Below are positions 11,040 through 14,218 of a DNA stretch of 14,218 bases, in pieces; positions within the stretch are counted from its first letter, which is position 1; every line of letters starts with the position of its first letter. The DNA lies in contig JAFYRC010000250.1 in NCBI GenBank assembly GCA_017547065.1, positions 1-14,218 on the forward strand. The letters run 5' to 3'. The position numbers were made by a program, and so were the translations under genes. The notes under the pieces are model-generated. The model did no database searches. It was given only the letters and a program-made list of their open reading frames with translations, and was not told where the DNA came from. This stretch comes from Tidjanibacter sp. Its GTDB lineage: Bacteria; Bacteroidota; Bacteroidia; Bacteroidales; Rikenellaceae.

Positions 11040-12818
11040 TTAGAACTTGCCTACGTTGTAGTAGATGTCCTTACCCTCGGGAGTGTACATTGCATTGAGG
11101 CGATCTGCGAAGTACTCCTCAACCTTACCACGAACAACCTTCATGGTGGAGTTGATCAGGTGGTTCTGCTCGGTGAAAGGCTCGTTCAGCAGTGCGAAAG
11201 TTGCGGGCAACCAACGCTCGGGGAACTGACCCTCAAACTTACCACCCCTCTTGTACTCGTTCAAGTCAGCCTGTACCAACTCGATGATCTTCCTCTGACC
11301 TTCCTCGCTATCCAAGGTGAGTTTGAGGGGAGCGAGAGCTGCCTTCATAGCCTCCTTGTTGGGCGAGATAAGAAGGGTAGTGTAGGGATCCTGGTTGTTG
11401 TGGAGGATTGCGTGGTCAATAAACTTCGAGGTCGAAACGTATGCCTCCTCGATACCCTCGGGGCAGTACTTCTCACCATCGGCAGCAATCAGAAGGCTCT
11501 TGAAACGACCGTAAACATAGAGGAGGTCGCCCTTGATAGCACCCATATCGCCGGTGTACAACCAGCCGTCCTTAACGGTGTCGGCAGTGGAAGCCTCATT
11601 CTTCCAGTAGCCCATCATCACGTTCTCGCCTTTGCAGACCATCTCGCCCTTCTCGCCCTCGGGAAGCTCGTTACCGTCGGGATCACAGATCTTCATCTCG
11701 AAGGGTTTAACCATCACACCGCTCGAACCGAACTGGTACCTGCGGGGACCGTTGGACGAAATTACGGGAGTAGCCTCGCTCAAACCATAGCCCTGGAACA
11801 TAGGCATACCTACGGCCATGAAGAACACCTGGAGCTCTTTGTCCAAGAGTGCGCCACCACCAACGAAGAATTTCAGCTCACCACCGAAGCCCTCGCGAAC
11901 TTTCGAGAAGATGATCTTGTCGAACAAGCACACCAGAGGTTTGCGCAAAGCACGCAGGCCCTTACCACGCTCTTTGTCGCTGTCGCCATTGTAGGCAATA
12001 GCGTTTTTAAGACCCCAGTTGTAGAGTTTCTCCACAGTTTTACCTTTGGCCTTAATGCTGTTCTCGATGTTTTTCTTGAAGTTCTTTGCCAGAGTGGGCA
12101 CCGAAAGAATGATGTGGGGTTTAACCTCACGGATGTTCAAAGGAATGTTTTTGAGGGTCTCCATACCAGTGCGACCGTTCTGTACGGTTGCAACCTGTGC
12201 GCCCTTGTGCATAAAGATGTAGAAACCTACAACGTGTGCAAAGCAGTGGTCCAAGGGGAGGATGATGAGCGTACGCCAAGTCTGGTCGATGTCCATCAGG
12301 GTGAGAGCCTGCTCAACGTTGGAGGTGTAGTTGCGGTGCGAAAGGCAAACACCTTTGGGATCGGCGGTAGTACCGCTGGTGTAGGTGATGGTTGCCAAGT
12401 CGTCGTTCTGGATAGCCTGACCGATTTTGAGGAAGCCCTCTTTGTCCTCGGCAAGGAGCTCACGGCCGAGAGCCTGTACGCTTTCGAGCGACACCTCACG
12501 GTCCTGATACTCGTCAATGGCGTCCAACACGATAACCTTCTCTACCAAAGGCAGGTCGGCGATGATACGACGGATTTTGGGGAGCTGGGTTTTCGAAACC
12601 ACGATCCACTTGGTGTCGGAGTGTTTCAGACGGAAGATGAGGTCGTTGCTCTCCTCGAGTTTGATCGACAGGGGCACGTTTGCAGCACCTGCGTAGAACA
12701 TTGCCAACTCGGAGATGATCCACATGTTGCGACCCTCCGAGAGGAGTGCCATATTGTCTTTGGGGGCTACGCCCAATTTTACAAAGCCAGCACCGAGCTC
12801 ATAGACCTTATCACGCAC
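11040..12818 (-). CDS. Long-chain acyl-CoA synthetase (AMP-forming); 5' end interrupted by two in-frame stops
   Basis: A 592-residue ANL-superfamily enzyme read from a GTG at 12818. It adenylates fatty acids with ATP and transfers them to CoA on the inner face of the membrane. Motifs include Y146-T-S-G-T-T-A-D-P-K-G (ATP/phosphate loop), Q-G-Y-G-L-S-E-A-T-P, W-L-Y-T-G-D-M-G-A-I-K-G-D-L, G-R-F-K-S-L-L-I-A-A-D-G-E-K, and the C-terminal N-S-T-M-K-V-V-R-G-K with the catalytic-type lysine. The catalytic body appears intact. The GTG is only the first standard start codon after two in-frame TAA codons. Family-like sequence (VANYPNNVFLKEKIGKEW) continues upstream of it in the same frame, and the natural ATG is almost certainly 12929. 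As written, translation would have to reinitiate at GTG 12818, losing about 37 N-terminal residues, or the gene is a recent pseudogene, or the sequence has errors. Confidence 0.85.
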   Translation of the reverse strand: MRDKVYELGAGFVKLGVAPKDNMALLSEGRNMWIISELAMFYAGAANVPLSIKLEESNDLIFRLKHSDTKWIVVSKTQLPKIRRIIADLPLVEKVIVLDAIDEYQDREVSLESVQALGRELLAEDKEGFLKIGQAIQNDDLATITYTSGTTADPKGVCLSHRNYTSNVEQALTLMDIDQTWRTLIILPLDHCFAHVVGFYIFMHKGAQVATVQNGRTGMETLKNIPLNIREVKPHIILSVPTLAKNFKKNIENSIKAKGKTVEKLYNWGLKNAIAYNGDSDKERGKGLRALRKPLVCLFDKIIFSKVREGFGGELKFFVGGGALLDKELQVFFMAVGMPMFQGYGLSEATPVISSNGPRRYQFGSSGVMVKPFEMKICDPDGNELPEGEKGEMVCKGENVMMGYWKNEASTADTVKDGWLYTGDMGAIKGDLLYVYGRFKSLLIAADGEKYCPEGIEEAYVSTSKFIDHAILHNNQDPYTTLLISPNKEAMKAALAPLKLTLDSEEGQRKIIELVQADLNEYKRGGKFEGQFPERWLPATFALLNEPFTEQNHLINSTMKVVRGKVEEYFADRLNAMYTPEGKDIYYNVGKF

Positions 12819-12929
12819 CTGTGTGTAGGTTGTATCGGTCCACTCTTTACCGATTTTCTCTTTCAGAAAGACGTTGTTCGGATAGTTAGCTACTTAACCT
12901 TAAAAGAGGTCCACCAAGTTTTTCTTCAT
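12819..12929 (-). pseudogene. Interrupted N-terminal segment of the acyl-CoA synthetase gene
   Basis: From ATG 12929 the minus strand reads M-K-K-N-L-V-D-L-F, then TAA (12902-12900), Gly, TAA (12896-12894). It continues in the same frame as V-A-N-Y-P-N-N-V-F-L-K-E-K-I-G-K-E-W-T-D and runs without break into the synthetase at 12818. The pattern 'M-K..L-V-x-L-F...S-V-x-x-Y-P-N-N-x-F-L' is what I recall as the ordinary N-terminus of this family, so the stops fall inside a formerly coding stretch. The other two frames are also closed within the same ~20 bp, so a simple frameshift does not rescue it. Confidence 0.7.
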
Positions 12930-12965
12930 AGAAGTTTTGTTTTACTTATACTTAAAATTTCACAC

Positions 12966-12978
12966 TTGTGGCACACAA
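12966..12978. repeat. Inverted repeat TTGTG-GCA-CACAA overlapping the synthetase -7 box
   Basis: Two perfect 5-bp arms flank a 3-nt centre, covering the predicted start site and the edge of the -7 box (12976-12983). It could be an operator half-site pair or a hairpin at the mRNA 5' end; it may also be chance. Confidence 0.3.
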
Positions 12979-12983
12979 ATATA
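12976..12983 (-). promoter_or_regulatory. Predicted -7 promoter box for the acyl-CoA synthetase gene
   Basis: TATATTTG on the minus strand matches TAnnTTTG and lies 46 bp upstream of ATG 12929, predicting a leader of about 40 nt. I see no TTG/TTTG at the -33 spacing, so the promoter may be weak, activator-dependent or wrong. Its position supports ATG 12929, not GTG 12818, as the original start. Confidence 0.45.
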
Positions 12984-13034
12984 TAAATTTATTTTGAGAT
13001 TGTTCTCCGTTGCTGCAAAATTATTCTGCCGCAC

Positions 13035-13729: not shown

Positions 13730-14218
13730 TTATTCGACCTCAATCACCAGAGTGGCCGGTTTGCGTGTGGCCTCCATCGACACATAGAGCAATCCGGGGT
13801 AGGGGCTCTCGATTGCGAGGGGCTTTCCGTTGAGTGTAGCTCGGTAGGTGTACTCGGGGTTAAGACAGGCCACAACGGCCACCTTCCTACCCACGGCATC
13901 CTTCTCGAAGCGCAACGAGGCTTTGTAGTGGCTTTGCTCGTTGGTGAATGTGCCACCCTCCACCACCACATCGAAACCGGTGGTAAGCGTACCCTTTCGG
14001 AAATAGGAGCTGTACCAGCACACCACGGGCGACGAGAGGCCCGAGAAGTTGTGCCAGCCGGCACCTCGGCCCGAGGCTATGATGAAGTGCTCGGGGCTGT
14101 TGTAGCTCTCGCCACACTCACGGCTCCAGGTGTCCAGTGCGGTAAAGGCAATCTTGTGTGCCTCGCTGGTGAGGTTGTTGTCCAACATTGATTTCCAGAG
14201 CATCATCTGATGGGGAAC
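13730..14218 (-). CDS. C-terminal part of a probable (alpha/alpha)6-barrel glycoside hydrolase, truncated by the window edge
   Basis: The frame is open to the window edge (V-P-H-Q-M-M-L-W upstream of the first internal Met), so only the last ~162 residues are seen. The visible part reads LDTWSRECGESYNSPEHF, then GRGAGWHNFSGLSSPVVCWYSSYFRKGTLTTGFDVVV, then a beta-rich tail (YKASLRFEKDAVGRKVAVVACLNPEYTYRATLNG...LVIEVE). The H-x-F-x-G-L-S...W...Y...G-x-L-T-x-G-F-D layout with a C-terminal beta-sandwich reminds me of MGH1/GH63-like six-hairpin glycosidases of Bacteroidetes. This is resemblance only, and the catalytic acids are not in the visible part. It is upstream of and co-directional with the nitroreductase, 53 bp away. 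The ending TAA at 13730-13732 is clear. Confidence 0.6.
   Translation of the reverse strand, partial: VPHQMMLWKSMLDNNLTSEAHKIAFTALDTWSRECGESYNSPEHFIIASGRGAGWHNFSGLSSPVVCWYSSYFRKGTLTTGFDVVVEGGTFTNEQSHYKASLRFEKDAVGRKVAVVACLNPEYTYRATLNGKPLAIESPYPGLLYVSMEATRKPATLVIEVE

Follow-up and report, generated by a model that had tools for sequence, protein, structure and literature searches.

Two in-frame TAA codons fall within the first twelve codons of a gene that runs open in every relative with which it was compared, and the question this locus raises is whether they record the loss of an enzyme, an unusual mode of translation, or a fault in the assembled sequence. The gene, 630 codons long and broken by these stops at codons 10 and 12, encodes an AMP-binding (ANL-type) acyl-CoA synthetase and occupies the minus strand at 11040..12929 of the window, by which we mean the whole 14,218-nucleotide stretch of DNA analysed. 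The window is one contig of a Rikenellaceae (Tidjanibacter-like) MAG of 1.73 Mb, assembled in 322 contigs (this one C314) and 90.7% complete, whose nearest relatives are Tidjanibacter sp. MAGs, mostly from ruminant gut.

The interrupted reading frame and its product

Translated from the ATG at 12929 on the minus strand, the gene reads M-K-K-N-L-V-D-L-F-stop-G-stop-V-A-N-Y-P-N-N-V-F, and then continues as an open frame to its terminal TAA at 11042-11040. Codon 10 (12900..12902) and codon 12 (12894..12896), both on the minus strand, are each TAA, at neither contig end, and the rest of the synthetase frame is intact, as the original prediction had described. That prediction also held that all three minus-strand frames close within a short distance, as they do on re-reading (at 12902 and 12896 in the frame of the gene, and at 12892 and 12888 in the other two), and that one indel could not explain the stops. 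A single indel is indeed ruled out, as the frame is the same on either side of the stops and the gene equals that of ten congeners in length. Upstream of the ATG, an AT-rich leader (12930..12996, minus strand) with a TATATTTGTGTGCCACAAGTGT-like stretch, also present in G013, G012, and G017, is a putative promoter.

Judged by profile membership, the gene product is an ordinary acyl-CoA synthetase. The part encoded downstream of the GTG at 12818 matches the PF00501 AMP-binding profile at 213.6 bits (cut-off 29.9), and the C-terminal AMP-binding_C_3 profile is matched at 21.9 bits (cut-off 20.8). In both matches the protein resembles the long-chain-type fatty acyl-CoA synthetases (ANL, PF00501), and its relatives carry the database names AMP-binding protein or long-chain fatty acid--CoA ligase; it differs from them in the TAA at codons 10 and 12, which the compared relatives lack.

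Were the nine-codon frame a leader, with reinitiation at GTG 12818 yielding a shorter enzyme or serving as a translational switch, then the ribosome would have to resume 75 bases past the second stop. This GTG (codon 38; 12816..12818, minus strand) is the first in-frame canonical start beyond the stops; no ATG, GTG, or TTG lies in frame between the second stop and it, and CTG 12866 and ATC 12854 are the only other candidates there. The 592-residue frame that it opens still scores as AMP-binding, in keeping with a functional shorter form, but lacks 37 residues, including positions 1-27 of the Pfam AMP-binding profile, which this product enters at position 28 of 384, whereas a relative (P0001) enters at position 1. 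As assembled, the N-terminal part of the AMP-binding domain is incomplete from any usable canonical start. A model of a relative's structure, built with 26 of the best 120 homologues aligned and of low confidence (mean pLDDT 56, hence a hint only), suggests that helix 5-15, strands 20-26 and 29-34, and the start of helix 35-52 would be lost. The predicted local fold is more stable at the GTG (-15.1 kcal/mol) than at the ATG (-6.2 kcal/mol), neither value being unusual relative to shuffled sequence. Further, the 592-residue form is absent among the best 120 of more than 8,000 homologous proteins, although the clusters in which these are grouped hide members, and an independent copy with the same stops may lie among the proteins hidden or unlisted. 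A short leader frame is found in none of the 18 relatives compared, all of which have one continuous frame, and a regulatory leader kept by selection is rejected on that ground. Taken together, we consider reinitiation the least probable of the explanations entertained here.

Comparison with relatives

Twenty-nine relative loci were fetched, and 5' ends were compared in 18 relatives. Codon 10 encodes Glu in all 18, and codon 12 encodes Ser, Ala, or Thr. All ten full-length congeners (not counting an eleventh that a contig end truncates) have a 630-codon frame free of internal stops, and all ten have Thr at codon 4 (12918..12920, minus strand), where AAC (Asn) constitutes a third private change in this MAG. 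The nearest relative, G013, is open throughout and 98% identical downstream of the stops, with Glu and Ser codons at positions 10 and 12 that each lie one G:C to T:A step from TAA; the substitutions proposed originally thus agree with it codon by codon. The close homologues use the same ATG, and none starts downstream of the stops. Given sense codons in all compared relatives, and an open frame in the nearest, both stops are, on this alignment, derived and private to the present MAG assembly.

The two bases changed to give the stops (within 12894-12903) occupy mirror positions in a small inverted repeat, which reads TGAAGGTTCA in G013 and TTAAGGTTAA in the window; this pairing may simply reflect a T preceding both codons. 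Elsewhere in the window, similarity to G013 drops past approximately 13,680, and the last partial frame (13730-14218) differs at nearly half its bases, suggesting a break in synteny beyond this point.

Within the genus, orthologues 90-98% identical to the gene occur in 11 congeneric genomes. Seven of the 22 congeneric genomes (G001, G002, G004, G007, G010, G014, and G015; best E no better than 2.1e-42) yielded no close copy, six of these seven being at least 98% complete, and the synthetase therefore looks dispensable in the genus, its loss apparently tolerated. In G003, G006, G008, and G011, the acyl-CoA synthetase copy is only 61-62% identical. Dispensability of this kind would suit a very recent, ordinary nonsense pseudogene, in which the stops are real, translation ends after nine codons, and the enzyme is lost to this strain. 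Such a pseudogene would have arisen by two substitutions or one multi-base event, with the remainder of the gene as yet undecayed, and the position of the premature stops, where orthologues have sense codons in 18 of 18 cases, is as it would predict.

Substitution pattern and MutY

Relative to G013, the synthetase differs at 151 codons synonymously and 18 non-synonymously, a figure that counts the two stops; of the 11 window genes compared, it has the smallest non-synonymous share. This constraint, together with the sense codons in all 18 relatives, indicates that the stops are more than chance noise in an open reading frame. Neutral decay of a pseudogene would have made an odd start here, with nonsense changes at both codons 10 and 12, no frameshift, and 16 missense differences alongside the 151 synonymous ones. 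At positions where the ten congeners agree, the synthetase has 15 private bases, six of them non-synonymous (codons 4, 10, 12, 144, 203, and 334). Its private amino-acid positions number four, relative to between zero and 11 in the ten congeners, and once the stops are set aside the gene is unremarkable; had it been broken very recently, no further changes would be expected.

Four of the 15 private bases are G:C to T:A changes, relative to 17 of 161 in the ten congeners, a weak excess (one-sided p 0.085). Across 110 gene pairs there is no genome-wide excess of this type (894 non-synonymous G:C to T:A differences vs 889 in reverse), a balance that speaks against widespread oxidative damage but is compatible with sparse errors. 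Neither does the clustering of changes at the 5' end prove a bad read, as a window with at least three differences in 12 residues is not rare, occurring in 18 of 26 conserved pairs.

MutY normally removes adenine opposite 8-oxoG, and its loss would consequently favour G:C to T:A transversion. Matches to MutY over the curated cut-off are patchy in the genus (5 of the 21 congeneric genomes searched), with none in the MAG, nor in 16 of those 21 congeners, including all the near ones searched. A near-relative branch without such a match offers a natural route to both TAA codons by mutation, and in this respect supports a pseudogene. An inactivation of MutY particular to the MAG, as a source of the transversions, is unsupported, because the near congeners equally lack a match. 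The one weak MutY match in the MAG, which had been flagged with a TAA, proved to be an intact 211-residue frame, presumably endonuclease III, and the TAA its own terminus.

Stops elsewhere in the assembly

If the stops arose as consensus errors, a comparable private break might be found in a gene that must be intact, and one was found. On contig C186 (8305-7448, minus strand), codon 24 of a 286-codon gene that we take to be rpoD is an in-frame TAG private to this MAG, which contains no other rpoD match. The stop is absent from all 23 other matching genomes (one further genome, 59% complete, has no match), and while Tyr21 and Glu24 are constant in six aligned congeners, only the MAG departs from them, with Phe21 and TAG24. 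Bacteria cannot dispense with their housekeeping sigma factor, which rpoD encodes. With the next in-frame canonical start, a GTG, only at codon 62 of this essential gene, TAG24 is most simply read as a consensus error, and, since an essential gene should be unbroken, point errors of this kind probably occur in the consensus of this MAG.

We compared 58 stretches of the MAG, among them the window (332,380 bases in all), with 82 from G013 (1,247,662 bases). The 109 orthologous genes that do not overlap (39,908 aligned residues) contain five in-frame stops. The synthetase accounts for two of these and codon 24 of rpoD for another; a further stop falls in the tail of a third gene (464 of 472), and the last in a frame of 133 codons that lies opposite a longer match. 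Outside rpoD and the synthetase, none of these genes contains a clean nonsense change. In one run an overlap filter replaced the synthetase by a longer frame on the opposite strand; the counts of stops and of substitution direction given here include the synthetase. The reverse comparison (96 orthologues, 41,697 residues) yielded stops in G013 in only two alignments, inside gapped, dissimilar stretches. Between the MAG and G013 we saw no frameshift that could be assigned to a real gene, in keeping with read errors of the substitution type.

Errors of this sort cannot be dense, as none of 39 further MAG matches (rpoB 1, rpoC 2, PF00009 12, PF00133 5, PF00005 17, and prfA 2) contains an internal stop. 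Random substitutions in these genes would give approximately 3.7% stops and 74% missense changes, and G:C to T:A substitutions 8.2% stops. At these rates, should the three stops in the synthetase and rpoD be errors of random substitution, the compared genes are expected to contain several tens more, which would hide within the approximately 5,900 non-synonymous differences.

Alternatively, the stops could be real but overcome by readthrough, whether from a suppressor tRNA or from loose termination, such that the synthetase and RpoD are both made at full length. Readthrough would explain the rpoD stop as well as the intact, constrained remainder of both genes. However, none of the 26 tRNA genes found has a stop-reading anticodon; of the 78 genes whose ends were checked, 68 terminate in TAA (36) or TAG (32); release factor 1 is encoded without internal stops; and stops within conserved genes are very few. 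The 26 do not form a full set, as none serves Lys, Gln, Trp, Asn, Phe, Val, or Ile, and a suppressor could have escaped detection. On these grounds we regard readthrough as very unlikely. Even less probable is that weak ochre-type suppression, or some unusual readthrough, lets the lineage tolerate rare 5'-proximal in-frame TAA and TAG codons, that of rpoD included. Genome-wide reassignment of TAA, judged unlikely at the outset because TAA ends hydG, hydF, the TonB receptor, and the synthetase itself (each re-read in the window), is ruled out by its use as terminal stop in 36 of the 78 genes and by the intact release factor 1.

Discussion

The original prediction left four explanations open for the two TAA codons: an assembly error, a recent pseudogene, translational reinitiation, and the deliberate use of a leader frame. 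It is the first that we favour, because a comparable private stop interrupts rpoD in the same MAG, and we place recent pseudogenization second. Neither readthrough nor a switch based on a leader and reinitiation has positive support. The two TAA codons are thus, on balance, probably errors of the assembled consensus, a judgement that we hold with only modest confidence. We infer that if the rpoD stop is an error, then the stops in the synthetase may have arisen likewise. Under this explanation, both TAA codons would be substitutions wrongly entered into the consensus of this highly divided assembly, at a place where reads over the 5' end were few or poor; the cell's own synthetase gene would be intact, and would start at the same ATG as those of its relatives. 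The likeness to point errors in MAGs extends to private substitutions with no frameshift seen, a fragmented assembly, and an essential gene also struck, and the difference lies in the lack of a genome-wide excess of one substitution type.

A recent nonsense pseudogene is a credible explanation, if one that we think falls short of probable. The locus resembles such pseudogenes in having in-frame premature stops in a gene that is otherwise intact, kept by many relatives, and missing from some. It departs from them in the lack of any further decay, and in the company of the rpoD stop, which cannot be simple gene loss and would need a separate explanation.

More broadly, these findings counsel caution: when a single contig of a fragmented MAG shows a striking lesion, one should ask how often essential genes of the same assembly carry similar ones. 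If, on the other hand, the stops in both the synthetase and rpoD were real, they would constitute evidence for natural nonsense suppression in an uncultured lineage of the Rikenellaceae.
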